This document shows positions 19,260 to 42,455 of a DNA stretch of 44,284 nt, piece by piece. The stretch spans positions 1-44,284 of the forward strand of contig NCBV01000017.1 in assembly GCA_002279355.1 (NCBI GenBank). The letters run 5' to 3'. The notes beneath the pieces were generated by a model. It made no database searches. It worked only from the letters and a program-made list of their open reading frames with translations, and was not told the origin of the DNA. Made by a program: the position numbers and the translations under genes. The DNA comes from Acidiphilium sp. 37-60-79 (GTDB lineage Bacteria; Pseudomonadota; Alphaproteobacteria; Acetobacterales; Acetobacteraceae). Position 1 is the stretch's first letter, and every line of letters starts with the position of its first letter.

Positions 19260-20545
19260 CGATTTCCCCGCCTACCAACCCCCCGCCTACCAAGCCAGAC
19301 TGGCTAACGGACGGCTGGAACCATGTCTGGCTGCCCTACGCCCAAATGCAAACGGCGCCGTTGCCCGCCCCCGCCATCCGCACCGAAGGCAGCCGCATCA
19401 CCCTCGCCGATGGCCGCGTCCTGATCGATGGCATCGCCTCCTGGTGGACCGCCTGCCACGGCTATAACCACCCGCATATTCGCGCCGCAGTCGCCCAACA
19501 GCTCGAAACCATGCCCCACATCATGTTCGGCGGCCTCGCCCACGAACCCGCCTACCGCCTCGCCACCCGCCTCGCCGCCCTCATGCCCGCCGGGTTGGAG
19601 CGCGTGTTCTTCACCGATTCCGGCTCCGTCGCCGTCGAAGTCGCCCTGAAAATCGCCCTCCAATCCCGCCTCAACCAAGGCGAAACCACCCGCACCAAAT
19701 TCCTCGCCTTCCACGGCGGCTATCACGGCGATACCTTCGCCACCATGGCCGTGTGCGACCCCGAAGAAGGCATGCACAACCTGTTCGCCGACATGCTCAC
19801 CAACCACATCATCGCCCCCCTGCCCACCAATCCCGCCAGCATTGCCGCCTTCGATGCCATCGCCGCCCGCCACGCCCGCGAACTCGCCGGCATCATCGTC
19901 GAACCCCTCGTCCAAGGGGCCGGCGGCATGCGCTTTCATCCCCCCGAAACCCTGCGCCACCTCCGCGCCACCGCCGATCATTACGGCCTGACCCTCATTT
20001 TCGATGAAATCTTCACGGGCTTCGGCCGCACCGGCACCCTCTTCGCCTACCAGCAATCCGGCGTCACACCCGACATCATCACCCTCTCCAAAGCCCTCAC
20101 CGGCGGCACCTCACCCCTCGCCGCCACCATCGTCTCCACCACCCTGTTCAACCATTTTCTCGCGCCCGACCCCGCCAAAGCCCTGATGCACGGCCCCACC
20201 TTCATGGCCAACCCGCTCGGCTGCGCCGCCGCCAACGCCTCGCTCGACCTGTTCGAACGCGAAAATCGCCTCGCCCAAGCCACCGCCCTCGGCGCCCAAA
20301 TGCAAACCGAACTCGCCCCCCTGCGCACCGCCCCCCACGTCATCGACGTGCGAACCCTCGGCGCCATCGGCGTGGTCCAACTAAAATCCATCGAAAACCC
20401 CGCCGCCCTGCGCACCGAATTGATGCGCCACAACGTCTGGATCCGCCCCTTCCGCGACATCATCTACCTCACCCCAGCCCTCACCATGAGCCCAGACGAA
20501 TTATCGCGCCTGACAGCAGCGATTGGAGCGGTGGTGAAGGGGTGA
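19256..20545 (+). CDS. bioA: Adenosylmethionine-8-amino-7-oxononanoate aminotransferase BioA
   Basis: The 429-residue class III aminotransferase uses SAM as amino donor to make 7,8-diaminopelargonate. Evidence: HVWLPYAQM at the N terminus, [16 protein letters not shown], the cofactor region [48 protein letters not shown] and the PLP lysine in [14 protein letters not shown]. The N-terminal WLPYTQM-type and SWW motifs distinguish BioA from other class III enzymes. The GTG start is set by overlap with bioB. With bioF, bioD and bioB the ring-assembly enzymes are complete; bioC/bioH-type pimelate genes are not in this window. Confidence 0.96.
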
Positions 20546-20563
20546 GAAGGGGGGAGCGAAAAA

Positions 20564-20585
20564 GTTCTTTTTTGGAAAAAAGAAC
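20564..20585. terminator. AT-rich palindrome after bioA
   Basis: GTTCTTTTTT-GG-AAAAAAGAAC is a perfect 10-bp inverted repeat. An outer pairing AAAAAGTT with AACTTTTT (to about 20598) gives an alternative fold. It lies 18 bases after bioA and probably acts as a terminator. Similar AT-rich palindromes are, from memory, common in Acetobacteraceae spacers. Confidence 0.55.
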
Positions 20586-20604
20586 CAAAAAACTTTTTGG
20601 AATT

Positions 20605-20724
20605 TTAGGGACAGTGTAAAAAACACACTTTTAGCGCGGCAAAGCACTCAAGCGTTTGCAAGATTTCCGCTAAATCTGGGTGTAGGTTTGATCGGAACTC
20701 CAGGATAAACTGATTTGCTTGCAT
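20605..20724 (-). CDS. Possible 39-residue small ORF (uncertain)
   Basis: A leftward ATG-to-TAA frame encodes 39 residues beginning MQANQFILEFRSNLHPDLAE. Its composition is protein-like, with an amphipathic helical stretch (DLAEILQTLECFAALK). It ends just before an AT-rich palindrome that could terminate it. There is no clear ribosome binding site and I recognise no family, so it may be non-coding. Confidence 0.2.
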   Translation of the reverse strand: MQANQFILEFRSNLHPDLAEILQTLECFAALKVCFLHCP

Positions 20725-20815
20725 GCGTCGCGTTTTGTGCCACCAAAAAATGTGGACACAGTCTTTTTCAAGCTGTAATTTCTCTCCGTGCTCAAGGCTG
20801 TAGGGTTAGGTAACG

Positions 20816-21184
20816 ATGTCTCAAAAAATGAATGTTTATCGCGTATTTGTATCGTCCCCGACTGACGTTATTGCCGAGAGGCAGACGGCAAAATCAGCAA
20901 TTTTGGAGACGTCGTCCTTTTTAGAGAAAAATGGCATTCGACTCGAACCGTGGTTGTGGGAGGAAAATGCGGTATCGGAATTCGGTAAGAGCCCTCAAGA
21001 AATAATCACGGGGCAACTTGGCGAATATGATTTATATATAGGGATCATGGGCGCAACTTTTGGTTCACCGACTCAAAAGTATGGTTCCGGTACGGAGGAA
21101 GAGTTTAATGAAGCAATTCGCGCTTTACAGGCAGGGACTCTGAAGCATGTAAGCTTTTTTTTAAGGATGTTACGATTCAGATGA
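20816..21184 (+). CDS. DUF4062 domain, N-terminal part of a split STAND-like NTPase
   Basis: This 122-residue frame begins MNVYRVFVSSPTDVIAERQ, the DUF4062 opening, and continues with LEPWLWEENAV, EYDLYIGIMGATFGSP and SGTEEEFNEAI. DUF4062 has a TIR/SEFIR-like look and often sits at the N terminus of signalling P-loop NTPases. The frame is then lost: after HVSFF it reads LRMLRFR and stops. The domain's remaining piece (FFKD...YKERIRTSGLYQYF) is intact in the -1 frame. The switch point is the T8 tract at 21155-21162. The ATG has AGG seven bases upstream. Codon use is AT-rich, unlike bioA or gshA. Either a programmed frameshift joins it to the next frame, or this is a broken gene. Confidence 0.8.
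   Translation: MSQKMNVYRVFVSSPTDVIAERQTAKSAILETSSFLEKNGIRLEPWLWEENAVSEFGKSPQEIITGQLGEYDLYIGIMGATFGSPTQKYGSGTEEEFNEAIRALQAGTLKHVSFFLRMLRFR
21155..21163 (+). promoter_or_regulatory. Candidate -1 frameshift / slippage site, T8 tract with T TTT TTA heptamer
   Basis: In the upstream frame the codons are AGC TTT TTT TTA AGG. The last seven bases before AGG, T TTT TTA, are the HIV gag-pol type slippery heptamer in the correct phase. A one-base backward slip gives S-F-F-F-K-D-V-T-I-Q-M-K-H and continues into the 777-residue frame. Addition of one T by RNA polymerase slippage or DNA mutation gives the same product. A clear downstream pseudoknot is not visible; a small TTGAT/ATCAA hairpin lies near 21190-21203. 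Confidence 0.6.
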
Positions 21185-23514
21185 AGCATATTGATAATAA
21201 TCAAATTTTTCAACTCCAGAAAATCGCCGAATATAAAGAACGCATAAGAACATCAGGACTATATCAGTATTTTACCGATGAAAAAGATTTGAAAGAAAAA
21301 ATTAAGAAAATTTTAATTCGCGAATTTACAAAAGAAAACTCTGAAGATTTAAACAATGAGTGTCTTGTCAGCTCATACCAAATCTCCCCAGTATTTGAGA
21401 GTGACGTTCTTAGTTCGCTTGACAAAAATCTAATTAGTGGAGATTCCTGGATAAGTCTCGAAGACATATGGATCGATCTAGATATTATAGTCGAAGAACG
21501 CGACGCTGCTGGAAAGTTAAAACGTTTAAGTTCGAACATATCCCGAATCTGCGACGAATCAATTTCCGGCAATTCAATACACATTGTTGGCGGTGAGACG
21601 TCAGGAAAGTCAACCGCCTGCAAAAAGTTATTTAGGATACTGCACGCGGAGAATTTTTTCCCAGTCTTATTGTCAAGTAAAAAAATAAAGTCCGTAAATA
21701 CCGATGATTTGAGTAATAAAGTAGCTCAATGCATCAGTGAACAGTATCTTGGATTTTCCCAAACACAGGCGAAAAAAATCGATAGTAAAAAAATTATAAT
21801 TATAATTGATGATTTTGATCAAACAACACTTAGTAAAAAATACGCTTTAAAAATCTTAAGTTGGCTCAAAGATTCGTATTATAGCGTAATAATAGCTACA
21901 GCGACATCTTACAAGTTTTCGGTGTTAGAAAATACGTCAGATATCGCAATATTGCGAGAATTTTTTCAATCGGAAATTTCGGAATTAGGGCATAAAAAAA
22001 GATACGAACTCATTGAGAATTGGTGTAAAGCAAAAAAATATGATAATTTATCTACTGATCAACTTAGGCATGCTGTAGAGAGCAAAAGGACGGTTATAAA
22101 CAGAATTTTAACAACCCATATTGTGCCTAGGACACCGTTGATCGTATTGATATTGCTGCAAGCTATTGATAGTGGCCAGTCGGCGGACTTGGCCCATAGT
22201 GGATACGTGAGATATTACAAATTTCTAATTGATAGCGCTATTCTAAAAAATTTGAAAGTTGCCGAAGCCGAGCAAGCTTACGCCCTTCTTCCCGAGGTCG
22301 CGTGGGCCATATATAATTCTAGTAGTATGGAGCTGACGGCTGACGAAGTGGAATGCGTAGTCGATCAATTCGCGTCGCGTCGAGCCTTACGCAAGTCAGG
22401 ACTTTTCGCAATACTTGAAAAAATGCGTCAAATTGGAATATTTGAGGTGGGTCAGGAAATTTATAGGATCCGACATGCCTATGTATATAATTTTTTTCTG
22501 TCGGAGTATATCAGCCGCAATCTTAACCAGCAGGCCATGGCCGACCATGTAAGAGACCTCTGTCTTAATGCCTGGTCGCGACAGACTGCCAATACATTAA
22601 TATTTTTGTCGTTTCATACCGACAGTATGATCGTAATTGATAGCCTAATAAAAAACTTAAATGAAGCATATGCTGCTGCGCCTCAATTTGAATTTTCTAT
22701 TGAAAATACTGAGGTTATAAATAGATTAATCGAACAAATCCCAAATCAAATCTTAGATGAAACTAAAACAAAGGAGCGTCGTAACAACAGGTTTGACACA
22801 CATGATAGGATTGATGCGTCTGAAAGGTCGGCGATGGAGTCCGGCCCAAATGTGATGTTGGACGAGATGGATCGAGTGTTTGTTGCTGTCGAAATTATCG
22901 GTCATATCCTAAGAAATCATTACGCGCGCATTGACGCTGAACCAAAACAAAATATGCTCGAAGTGGCATCAAATGCTATTTTAAGATGTATTGGTAGCTT
23001 GCTGGATAAATTATCAAAATCGATTGATACAATAGTTGATATAATACAAACTGCGTTATACCATATTGAGATCAAGCAAAATCCTGAATACAAGGATAAA
23101 AATAACGATATTAGGGAAAAAATTGCACGACAAATCGTGTTTATTCTCACGGCAGGATTTATATCGTATTGTAGTCGAAAGCTGTCTCGAGCGGTTGGAG
23201 ATGAGAATTTGGATATAACCTATCAGCAAGTTTTAGAAAAAGTTCCAAATTCGATGAAAAAATATCTGGATGTTATGATCAAACTCGACTGTTATCGTTC
23301 ATTCCCGTTGAAAGAACTTGATGAAGTTGCTAATTTACTCAAAAAAGATCATGTTGGAACAGCCGTTCTAAGATACGCAGTAGCTGAGAGGCTAGATATG
23401 AGGCCCCCCGAAAATAGTGCCGATTTCAAAAAATACTGCGACCTCGTCGGGCTGGAGATTACACCCCGTCTCATTGAACGGCAGCGGCTAGGGTCCCACA
23501 CGAAGTTAGTTTAA
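21181..23514 (+). CDS. P-loop NTPase (STAND-like) with C-terminal part of DUF4062, putative defence protein
   Basis: This 777-residue frame opens with the second half of DUF4062 (QKIAEYKERIRTSGLYQYFTDEKDLKEKIKKIL). Walker A GGETSGKS follows at residues 137-144 and Walker B IIIIIDDFD at about 205-213. Further on come EISELGHKKRYELIENWC and a winged-helix-like stretch (LRHAVESKRTVINRIL...PLIVLILLQAI), an order typical of STAND/NACHT-type switches. Residues from about 400 to 777 are mostly helical and match no repeat family I recognise. The ATG at 21181 overlaps the upstream TGA (ATGA) with AAGGA 13 bases before it, so reinitiation is possible, but it falls inside DUF4062. A fused product would be about 899 residues. 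It ends 13 bases from the convergent gshA. AT-richness implies horizontal acquisition; an antiviral role is inferred from architecture. Confidence 0.75.
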   Translation: MKHIDNNQIFQLQKIAEYKERIRTSGLYQYFTDEKDLKEKIKKILIREFTKENSEDLNNECLVSSYQISPVFESDVLSSLDKNLISGDSWISLEDIWIDLDIIVEERDAAGKLKRLSSNISRICDESISGNSIHIVGGETSGKSTACKKLFRILHAENFFPVLLSSKKIKSVNTDDLSNKVAQCISEQYLGFSQTQAKKIDSKKIIIIIDDFDQTTLSKKYALKILSWLKDSYYSVIIATATSYKFSVLENTSDIAILREFFQSEISELGHKKRYELIENWCKAKKYDNLSTDQLRHAVESKRTVINRILTTHIVPRTPLIVLILLQAIDSGQSADLAHSGYVRYYKFLIDSAILKNLKVAEAEQAYALLPEVAWAIYNSSSMELTADEVECVVDQFASRRALRKSGLFAILEKMRQIGIFEVGQEIYRIRHAYVYNFFLSEYISRNLNQQAMADHVRDLCLNAWSRQTANTLIFLSFHTDSMIVIDSLIKNLNEAYAAAPQFEFSIENTEVINRLIEQIPNQILDETKTKERRNNRFDTHDRIDASERSAMESGPNVMLDEMDRVFVAVEIIGHILRNHYARIDAEPKQNMLEVASNAILRCIGSLLDKLSKSIDTIVDIIQTALYHIEIKQNPEYKDKNNDIREKIARQIVFILTAGFISYCSRKLSRAVGDENLDITYQQVLEKVPNSMKKYLDVMIKLDCYRSFPLKELDEVANLLKKDHVGTAVLRYAVAERLDMRPPENSADFKKYCDLVGLEITPRLIERQRLGSHTKLV

Positions 23515-23527
23515 TCAGCACGCCCCC

Positions 23528-24892
23528 CTACAGCGCCGCCTCCGCAAAAATCTTCCGCGCATCCCCATGCCAAGCGCCAAAATACCGTCCCAGCCAATGT
23601 TCCGCCTGCGTCGGGCCGCCATCGGCGATGGCGGCGAGCGGCGCGAGATATTGCGTCTCGTCGCGTCCCGCCGCGTCGCGCCGGGCGCGGGCGCGCAGAC
23701 CGTCGGTGGCAATCGCAATCACGTCGCGCGCCAAATCGCGCAGCGTGCCGCGACCAAGAGCGAGGTCAAGCCCCCGCTCCGGCACCGCCTCGCGCATCGC
23801 GACCACCGCTGCGTAATCAATCCCAGCGGTCAATGCCTCCGCCGCCGCGAGCGCCGCATCATCATAAAATAACCCCACCCACAACGCAGGCTGCGCCAGC
23901 AACATCGCCGGATTGCCGGAATCCGCCCCCCGCGTCTCGATAAACCGCTTCAACCGCACATCTGGAAATGTCGTGGTGGTGTGATCAGCAAAATCGCCAA
24001 TGCTCGGGCGCTGCCCCTCAAACCCCGCGAGCTTGCCCGCGATGAAATCGCGGAACGAATGCCCCGCCACATCGATATAGGCCCCGTCGCGATAAACAAA
24101 ATACATCGGCACATCGAGCAAATATTCTGCATATCGCTCAAAGCCGAAATCCGCCTCAAACACACAAGCCGGCACCCCGCTGCGCGCATTGTCGGTATCC
24201 AGCCAGGTAAAGGCCCGGTTCGAGAGCATGCCGTTCGGCTTGCCCTCGCGAAACGGCGAATTGGCAAATAACGCCGTCGCCAACGGTTGCAGCCGGAGCG
24301 CCAATCGCATTTTGCGCACCATGTCCGCTTCGGAGCAAAAATCGAGATTGGCCTGCACCGTGCACGTGCGCAACATCATGTCCAGCCCGCGCGTGCCAAC
24401 CCTGGGCATATAAGCGCGCATAATCGCGTAGCGCCCCTTGGGCATCCAAAATAAATCCTCCCGCGTCGCCGTCGGGTGAAAACCAAGCGGCGCAAACCCA
24501 AGCCCCATCTGCCGCCCAATGCGCTGCACCCGCGCAATATGCGCCTCAATCTCCGCCCGCGTCGCATGCAAATCTGCAACAATCCCGCCCGACAGCTCAA
24601 ATTGCCCGCCCGGCTCCAGCGAAATCGAAAAATTCGCCCCGTTCAGCCCAATCGGCTGGCCCCGGTCCAAAATCGGCGCCAGCCCCTCATCCGCCGCCAC
24701 CGACTCCAACACCGCCCGAATCCCATCCGGCTCATAAGGAATCGAAGCCTGATCGGCATGGCGAAAACCAAAACTCTCATGCTCGGTCCCAATTCGATAG
24801 GCACTCTCTGGCTTACAGCCCGCCGCAAACCAGTCCGCAAGCTGGCGAACATCGGTAATCGGGGTGGTATCGGCTTCGCCGGGATTGGACAA
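23528..24892 (-). CDS. gshA: Glutamate-cysteine ligase GshA (plant/alphaproteobacterial type)
   Basis: The 454-residue protein forms gamma-glutamylcysteine, the first step of glutathione synthesis. It matches the GCS2-like class shared by alphaproteobacteria and plants: RIGTEHESFGF, ISLEPGGQFELSGG, GFHPTATREDLFWMPKGRYAIMRAYMP, RTCTVQANLDF, FANSPFREGKPNG, VPMYFVYRDG and TTTTFPDVRLKRFIETRGAD. The start codon is TTG at 24892, with AGGAG six bases upstream lying inside the end of rsmE. Only one base separates it from the rsmE stop, so the two form an operon. Confidence 0.95.
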   Translation of the reverse strand: MSNPGEADTTPITDVRQLADWFAAGCKPESAYRIGTEHESFGFRHADQASIPYEPDGIRAVLESVAADEGLAPILDRGQPIGLNGANFSISLEPGGQFELSGGIVADLHATRAEIEAHIARVQRIGRQMGLGFAPLGFHPTATREDLFWMPKGRYAIMRAYMPRVGTRGLDMMLRTCTVQANLDFCSEADMVRKMRLALRLQPLATALFANSPFREGKPNGMLSNRAFTWLDTDNARSGVPACVFEADFGFERYAEYLLDVPMYFVYRDGAYIDVAGHSFRDFIAGKLAGFEGQRPSIGDFADHTTTTFPDVRLKRFIETRGADSGNPAMLLAQPALWVGLFYDDAALAAAEALTAGIDYAAVVAMREAVPERGLDLALGRGTLRDLARDVIAIATDGLRARARRDAAGRDETQYLAPLAAIADGGPTQAEHWLGRYFGAWHGDARKIFAEAAL

Positions 24893-40629: not shown

Positions 40630-42455
40630 GTGCCCAGCCTGACCCATCCCCGCACCCGCCCGGACGCGCCGCCTGATCCGCCCGATCCCCTCGCGCTCCT
40701 GCACCGCATTTTCGGTCATTCCGGCTTTCGCGGCGATCAAGCTGACATCGTCAACCATCTCATCACCGGCCAGGACGCCATCGTCCTCATGCCCACCGGC
40801 GGCGGCAAATCGCTTTGCTATCAGCTCCCCGCTTTGTGCCGTCCCGGCGTCGCCGTGGTGGTTTCGCCCCTCATCGCGCTGATGCGCAACCAGGTCGAAG
40901 CCCTGCGCCAGCTCGGCGTGCGCGCCGCCGCCCTCAATTCCAGTATCACCGGCGCCGAACAATCCGCCGTGCGCAGCCAATTGCGCGCAGGCACGCTCGA
41001 TCTGCTCTATGTCGCGCCCGAGCGGCTGGTCTCGGATGATTTCATGGCCCTGCTCGATGATCTGCGCATCGCTTTGTTCGCCATCGATGAAGCCCATTGC
41101 GTGAGCCAATGGGGCCATGATTTCCGCCCGGAATATCTGCAACTCGCGAGCCTCGGCGGGCGCTATCCCGGCGTGCCGCGCATCGCGCTCACCGCCACCG
41201 CCGACCCGCAAACCCGCGAGGACATCGCCCGCCGCCTCGGCCTGCCCAATGCCCGGCTGTTCCTCTCCAGCTTCGATCGCCCGAACATCACCTATGCAAT
41301 CCTGCCAAAAGCCGAACCCAAGCGCCAATTGCTCAGCTTTTTGCGCCGCCATCCCGGCGCCAGCGGCATCGTCTATTGCCTCAGCCGCGCCACGGTCGAT
41401 GAAACCGCCGCTTGGCTGCAAGCGCAAACGCCGATGACCTCACCGGATCAGGCCTCGTGCTGGTCGCCACCATCGCCTTCGGTATGGGCATCGACAAGCC
41501 CGACGTGCGCTTCGTCGCCCATCTCGATCTGCCCTCCAGCCTCGAAGCCTATTATCAGGAAACCGGCCGCGCCGGGCGCGATGGCAACCCAGCCGAAACT
41601 TTTCTCCTCTATGGCATGCAAGACGTCGTGCTCCGCCGCCGCATGATCGATCAAGGCAACGCGCCCGAGCCGGTCAAACGCATCGAACGCGGCAAGCTCG
41701 ATGCGCTGCTCGGCGTCTGCGAAACCGCCGGCTGTCGCCGCCAAGCCATCCTCGCCCATTTCGGCGAAACCTATCCCGCTCCGTGCGGCAATTGCGATAA
41801 TTGCGCCCGCCCGGTCGCGACGTGGGACGGCACCATTGCCGCCCGCAAAGCCCTCTCCGCCATCCACCGCACCGGCCAGCGCTTCGGCGTCGGCCACCTC
41901 ACCGATCTCCTGCTCGGCATCCAAACCGAAAAAATAACCCGCTTTAACCATCATGCGCTCCCCACCTTCGGCGTCGGCACCGAGCTTGATCGCAAAGGCT
42001 GGGGCTCCGTCTTTCGCCAACTCGTCGTCAATGGCATTCTCGCCGTCGATCACGATGCCTTCGGCGCCCTCATCCCCACCGAACGCGCCGCCCCCATCCT
42101 GCGCGGCCAGCAGCCCATTTCGTTTCGCCGCGACCTTGAGCCAGAGCGAAAATCATCCCCATCCACATCCACATCCCCATCCACATCGCAGGCCCGTGCA
42201 GCCACCCGCGCCGCCAAGGCCGCCATCCCCATCGAAGACAGCAACGCCCCACTTTTTGAAAAACTCCGCGCGCTCCGCAAACAACTCGCGAGCGAGCAAG
42301 GCGTGCCCGCCTACGTCATTTTCCACGACAGCACATTAATCGCCCTCGCCAACGCCCGCCCCAGCACCCGCGCCGACCTCGCCGCCATCCCCGGCATGGG
42401 CACCAGCAAAATCGACCGCTACGGCGATTCGCTCCTCAGCCTCATCGCCGAATGA
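40630..42455 (+). pseudogene. recQ: recQ ATP-dependent DNA helicase, broken by internal deletion and frameshift
   Basis: The first frame (from GTG 40630) encodes RecQ motifs 0-[59 protein letters not shown], then [22 protein letters not shown]. Homology stops near 41427. In the -1 frame it resumes with [37 protein letters not shown], the RQC zinc site CGNCDNC, and an HRDC domain ending at 42455. Roughly 20-25 residues, including the conserved YHAGL segment of motif IV, are missing at the junction (41428-41438), and the frame changes. RecQ unwinds DNA in recombination; this copy is probably non-functional unless the sequence is wrong. A PST-rich low-complexity linker lies near 42150-42190. Confidence 0.88.

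Follow-up and report, generated by a model that had tools for sequence, protein, structure and literature searches.

A DUF4062-NACHT gene split at a run of eight T in Acidiphilium, and an apparently conserved poly-A frame step in its TIR-NACHT relatives

When a gene is divided between two reading frames exactly at a slippery sequence, is the cell making use of the break, or is the gene simply broken? The question is raised by a locus in Acidiphilium sp. 37-60-79, within a 44,284-nucleotide stretch of contig NCBV01000017.1 that we call the window, where one open reading frame (ORF1, 20816..21184, plus strand, 122 aa) is followed by another (ORF2, 21181..23514, plus strand, 777 aa). A sequence-only reading had proposed that the two are halves of a single defence-type DUF4062-NTPase gene, placed under frame control by a slippery heptamer. 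Our own answer is that the window gene has probably suffered an ordinary one-base indel, be it a mutation or an assembly error, and taken alone it is of little import, probably a broken defence gene. What is new here, and was reached from this ordinary feature, is a -1 step at a poly-A tract that appears, from the sequences compared, to be conserved in TIR-NACHT proteins.

As for what the locus encodes, the proposed defence-type identity has held up well. ORF1 carries most of a DUF4062 domain (a TIR-like NADase family), truncated just past an FFF strand, and matches Pfam DUF4062 (PF13271) at 3e-10, with 40.6 bits against a cut-off of 24.7. ORF2 comprises the region that follows the DUF4062 strand and then a DS-8-like NACHT NTPase with its C-terminal module, and is matched by the NCBIfam model NF053861 (DS8_antiphage) at 5.2e-129 over positions 301-992 of 994, with 431.6 bits, under the curated cut-off of 790. 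Between them the two ORFs match the whole-length PADLOC profile PDC-S60 (PDLC05050, 906 positions), ORF1 at 3-115 (2.3e-25) and ORF2 at 126-870 (4e-69), end to end and without overlap, which bears out the claim that one DUF4062 gene is split between two frames at 21155-21162. Both pieces therefore fit over 3-870 of the 906 positions, but the profile is one continuous frame, whereas the window gene uses two, its zero frame being closed by a stop at 21182-21184. Judged by these matches the window gene belongs with PDC-S60, a candidate antiphage system, and in it a DUF4062 effector, probably TIR-like and NAD-cleaving, is set on a DS-8-like NACHT module. As regards a catalytic Glu, ORF1 has a GTEEEF stretch; a comparison of ORF1 with solved structures gave no meaningful match. 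PDC-S60 itself is a candidate only, and we know of no test of it.

Better-studied proteins resemble the window gene in parts. DS-8, from DefensePredictor, is described as a metallophosphatase-NACHT defence protein in which mutating either domain abolished defence (PMC13092281); ORF2 resembles its NACHT and C-terminal part, but the window gene has DUF4062 in place of the metallophosphatase effector, and its score is under the curated cut-off. A preprint reports DUF4062 as a TIR-like NADase and describes an antiphage system, Swarozyc, that contains it, and also that DUF4062 adjoins NACHT in human TEP1, NWD1, NWD2 and NPHP3 (PMC13174449). DUF4062 is what the window gene has in common with Swarozyc, TEP1 and NWD1, while the frame split belongs to the window gene only, and portal sensing and NADase activity are here predicted at most. 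The accessible text of the same preprint names no NACHT in the bacterial Swarozyc proteins, whereas the window gene has one (PMC13174449).

The surroundings of the gene suggest a newcomer. Its GC content is 38.6%, against 65.1 and 64.0% in the flanks and 61.5% in the window, and to its left lies a low-GC spacer (20546..20815, 42.6% GC). Judging by their ORFs, its neighbours are bioA-like on one side, where the gene ends at 20545, and glutamate-cysteine-ligase-like on the other (23528-24892, minus strand). In two genomes of the same genus, G005 and G006, the site is empty, the aligned parts of the flanking genes lying about 197 and 146 bp apart; this empty site, together with the GC content, points to horizontal acquisition. 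Within the genus, the interval that separates the bioA-like gene from the gsh-like one (window 20546-23527; L212, L213) is a variable site, since in G002 and G010 it is filled by other ORFs, one of which has the P-loop motif GPNGGGKTT. Searched for among 100 relatives, ORF2 occurred only in the window's own genome; a DNA search with the window gene gave nothing useful in plasmids or E. coli, a protein search with ORF2 nothing useful in phages, and a scan of genome contigs with ORF2 alone as query was unproductive. We also noticed that about 35 bp directly past the bioA-like gene (window 20565-20600) are present in many copies in genomes of the genus.

Where, then, does the frame change? The point is a run of eight T (21155..21162, plus strand), the longest homopolymer of the gene and its sole run of eight or more. 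Across it the zero frame reads TTT TTT TTA AGG and on to a TGA, the ORF1 product stopping a few codons past the slip site; ORF2 is the -1 frame, open from 21112, and both frames are open over 21112..21184 (plus strand). The heptamer T TTT TTA (21157..21163, plus strand) does lie in zero-frame phase, exactly as needed for a -1 shift, and 777 codons downstream (21181-23514) are indeed open, as had been claimed. Two further features had escaped remark: the first ATG of ORF2 overlaps the ORF1 stop in an ATGA (21181..21184, plus strand), and ORF2 contains 11 phased heptamers of the X XXY YYZ form. From alignments of relatives, by which the strand was placed, the FFFK strand and the sequence after it appear to be part of the DUF4062 fold, so that the short product would lack the end of this domain.

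It had been argued that a phased slippery site is an improbable target for decay, and here we disagree. An eight-base run holds the six-base slip string in all three phases, so a phased heptamer follows automatically, by simple arithmetic, from the loss of one base, and once the break sits in the T-run its phasing is no more than chance. Since any such run is slippery in every phase, and since phased heptamers occur within ORF2 as well, we rejected the phasing as an argument against decay; what decay would have hit is the longest homopolymer of the gene, and homopolymers are hot spots for indels. A downstream stimulatory RNA structure is usual, though not obligatory, for programmed -1 frameshifting. 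We looked for one in four stretches 3' of the T8 (60-137 nt), and in pseudoknot-free folding these did no better than shuffles (z -0.07, 0.70, 0.98 and 1.09), so RNA structure was dropped as a candidate at the window site.

Do relatives share the break? The authors of GeneTack take a frame change that belongs to no cluster of similar cases to be a likely indel or sequencing error (PMC3711429), and by this yardstick the T8 does poorly, as the site is conserved in none of the DUF4062 relatives that were read. These number 16, out of 26 loci found, and in every one the frame runs continuously through the break strand, with T-runs there of 2 to 8; L039 has an in-frame T8 at the DUF4062 strand with its frame unbroken, and L030, which is among the 16, has no more than an ORF of 152 codons, which stops about 40 residues past the strand. 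The remaining ten loci are L007 and nine that were not placed by eye (L009, L012, L014, L017, L034, L035, L036, L038 and L041). Outside the 16, the DUF4062 ORF of L007 (genome G419) has an in-frame TAG at the same strand as the window's break. Among the other DUF4062 matches listed for 372 genomes of the class, several of these matches belonging to genes already among the 16, 0 of 15 have a stop inside the matched domain. An unbroken frame in homologues had been named in advance as counting against the slippage idea, and for the DUF4062 domain this is what the 16 loci have; the homologue-frame test is nevertheless incomplete, because no close full-length homologue of the whole window gene was found in the searches made. 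With these relatives unbroken and no fold beyond shuffles, programmed frameshifting at the window gene, as originally proposed, finds no support.

The T8 gene is also not the only broken gene in the assembly. recQ (window 40630-42455) is split, with 58 bases fewer than in G005 and G003 and a change of frame, and fmt, for methionyl-tRNA formyltransferase (L198:5911-7232, minus strand), has apparently lost an internal stretch, with a shift of frame; these breaks suggest that the genome decays or that its assembly has local faults. A frame-plot test over 216 kb of the genome, which took in 42 runs of seven or more, found 5 that kept frame, 1 that shifted and 36 that were unclear or at an edge, and is too weak to speak to homopolymer errors. 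When nine flagged places were viewed by eye, fmt was the one clear frame change and most others were taken for gene borders. In L208, the match of a glyceraldehyde dehydrogenase-like ORF is confined to positions 5-195 of 280.

How do the possible explanations compare? We favour the indel because the T8 is the longest run, the 16 DUF4062 relatives are unbroken, no fold is evident, the heptamer is a weak one in E. coli, and recQ and fmt are broken in the same assembly. A horizontally acquired gene of the PDC-S60 kind would, in this account, have lost its frame at its longest homopolymer, through a one-base change that is either a recent mutation in the organism or an assembly error. Translation in the zero frame would give a DUF4062 without its end and the system would most likely be off or very weak, although RNA polymerase or ribosome slippage on the T8 may leak a little full-length protein, with no sign of selection for such a leak; the cause of the break, the inactivity and the horizontal origin are the parts that we infer. 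Some observations do count against the indel. With 777 codons of ORF2 still open, a lesion would have to be recent, and the breaks in recQ and fmt are deletions, not homopolymer indels. The nearest relatives of the ORF2 module are about 20-28% identical, so that a recoding site present in none but close relatives would go unseen. In addition, a sister TIR-NACHT clade has a conserved -1 step (see below), and E. coli RNA polymerase slips on T-runs (PMC6260861).

The last two points, along with the open downstream frame, are also what speaks for a functional T8, on which slippage by RNA polymerase, or phase variation through DNA replication, would change how many T some transcripts or cells have, as may happen with the poly-A of the sister clade, and only some would make the DUF4062-NACHT protein. 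The clade's step lies at A9-A10, and the E. coli polymerase reportedly slips on runs of T from about 7 (7 or more), with poly(T) preferred over poly(A) (PMC6260861). We nonetheless consider a functional run unlikely: the window site falls inside DUF4062 and not in an effector-NACHT linker, so that the short product would be no complete effector, avoidance of A and T runs is reported as evident only at nine in a large share of bacteria (PMC1088944), and the T8 is known from one assembly of one strain. Programmed ribosomal -1 frameshifting at T TTT TTA seems to us improbable, for although the phase of the heptamer is exact and a zero-frame stop follows a few codons later, there is no downstream structure above shuffles, 0 of the 16 DUF4062 relatives conserve the site, and U_UUU_UUA is described as far less shift-prone than A_AAA_AAG in E. 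coli (PMC5009743). That the ORFs instead encode two coupled proteins, ORF1 stopping and ORF2 restarting at the ATGA overlap to give a separate NACHT protein, is very improbable, given that the cut falls inside DUF4062 and the PDC-S60 profile spans it; the overlap of start and stop would suit such coupling, as would the separate TIR gene found directly upstream of TIR-NACHT genes in two genomes.

If the window gene is most simply a casualty, does frame control occur anywhere near it? A profile scan for the NACHT module through the genome contigs of 84,980 species and IMG/VR gave 92 loci (80 kept of 86, plus 12), 81 of which passed a stricter phmmer search at 1e-10. Not one ORF in these 92 loci turned out to have a DUF4062, so the window's break is common to none of them. 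Sorted by simple motifs, the N-termini of the 81 comprise 31 metallophosphatase, 27 TIR and 23 unassigned, several of the last evidently belonging to one of the two named kinds. Among the 81, the frame is broken in at least six, at seven places; six is a lower bound because the search for breaks covered only those loci whose ORF length or type had drawn a flag. Six of the seven breaks lie at a run of seven or more, and three of the six loci represent linker steps that we read as conserved: L067 (Massilia niastensis), L106 (Psychrobacter) and L126 (IMG/VR) have a -1 step in the TIR-NACHT linker, in each case at an A9 or A10. The others are L122, with a +1 step at A7, L133, with a +1 step at T7/A8 and a -1 step at A7, and L108, whose break is away from any run; L090 also ends early, near the end of its contig. 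Long runs as such are common in this family, 28 of the 70 intact module relatives counted having one of eight or more, so the T8 of the window gene is no oddity.

The linker step recurs beyond these three loci. Two IMG/VR loci, L242 and L243 (81 and 62% identical to L126), have it, the scan that yielded them bringing up a further distinct relative, L244, whose frame is unbroken, and so do 3 of 5,426 complete E. coli genomes, two of them identical and the third with three differences over the locus, which RefSeq annotates as a separate TIR gene and NACHT gene. Across the six lineages the step lies at L067:3919-3928, L106:3756-3764, L126:3761-3769, L242:4004-4012, L243:3960-3968 and, in E. coli, L238:2445-2454. 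It is always -1, at a run of A9 or A10 with a phased A AAA AAN heptamer (only in two of the six is it A AAA AAG, which is efficient in E. coli), and zero to four sense codons separate the run from the zero-frame stop. In L243 the frame changes once more close to the 3' end. Five of the six split lineages, namely Massilia (L067), E. coli and the three IMG/VR loci, group together in trees built from 42 and 40 NACHT parts, as a clade with support of 100/98 and 100/99 and no in-frame member, while the Psychrobacter locus (L106) stands apart. With all 40 rows labelled, frame state requires two changes on the tree, compared with 5.7 under shuffling, where none of 500 shuffles came out that low; the same test with only 10 labelled rows is weak (2 changes against 3.4, with 56 of 500 shuffles as low). 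For L126 and L242, the closest pair of the clade, amino-acid identity is 84% in TIR and 82% in NACHT with dN of 0.09 and 0.12 and dS saturated, which indicates that purifying selection has acted on both ORFs, and each of the two members has the split at present.

Outside the linker, TIR-type genes avoid long A-runs, but inside it they do not. In 34 intact TIR-type relatives, A-runs of nine or longer number 0 outside the linker, where protein-preserving codon shuffles predict 10.3 (0 of 200 shuffles as low). Inside the linker, taken as codons 130-175 with limits chosen after the runs had been viewed, they occur in 4 genes against 1.9 expected, which is not significant alone (13 of 200 shuffles as high). 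The in-frame relatives L056, L057, L078 and L093 have an A9-A10 in the same linker, at codons about 142-149, where slippage would yield a lone TIR instead, and DNA phase variation may occur at this site. A conserved RNA structure accompanying the poly-A was considered and rejected, with z of -3.18 in L106, -1.66 in E. coli and -1.09 to +0.42 in the other four, so that the fold 3' of the run is clearly beyond shuffles in one of six lineages. The lack of conserved structure and the run length of A9-A10 would point to polymerase slippage rather than structure-driven ribosomal shifting, against which counts the reported preference of the E. coli enzyme for poly(T) over poly(A) (PMC6260861). Viral scans with single proteins were unproductive, a viral scan with the clade gave no new members, and a protein search with L242 gave nothing useful in phages. 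Among the open-access titles and beginnings of abstracts listed, we found no description of frameshifting or phase variation in defence systems.

All of this gives good grounds, as far as sequences can tell, to see conserved recoding or slippage at work in the effector-NACHT protein of the TIR-NACHT clade, and through it frame control probably exists near by in the family. The earlier suggestion that effector-NTPases are under frame control thus gains support from the sister TIR-NACHT proteins and none from the window gene. Their probable frame control raises the chance that the T8 is functional, but rescues a programmed reading of it only in part, because the window site differs in base, length, place and product, the modules are about 20-28% identical, and nothing alike was seen in the DUF4062 relatives read; differing from the poly-A step in place and sequence, the window T8 is not an example of it. 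One could go further and suppose that effector-NACHT proteins of the PDC-S60/DS-8 group have repeatedly come under frame control by slippage tracts near the effector end (A9-A10 in TIR-NACHT, T8 in DUF4062), with a set or cell-variable ratio of effector-only to full-length protein serving to tame a suicidal NADase, an idea that we hold to be rather doubtful.

The best-known examples of recoding come from dnaX, IS elements and viruses. Use of A and T runs is reported for IS elements and for T. thermophilus dnaX, with its nine A (Baranov et al., PMC1088944), and as in the window gene their ORF pair or product goes out of frame where a slippery run lies, but their sites are reported as conserved or experimentally tested, and the window site is neither (PMC1088944, PMC5009743); the TIR-NACHT clade is the better fit to such genes. 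If the poly-A step does yield a lone TIR as well as a TIR-NACHT protein, recoding would also govern the stoichiometry of a bacterial immune protein of NLR-like type, and the two-gene annotation in E. coli would hide one system. A separate TIR gene lies directly upstream of the TIR-NACHT gene at L274 (G727) and L275 (G996), as if a lone TIR were useful. The TIR-NACHT gene of G996 is itself interrupted, apparently by an insert.
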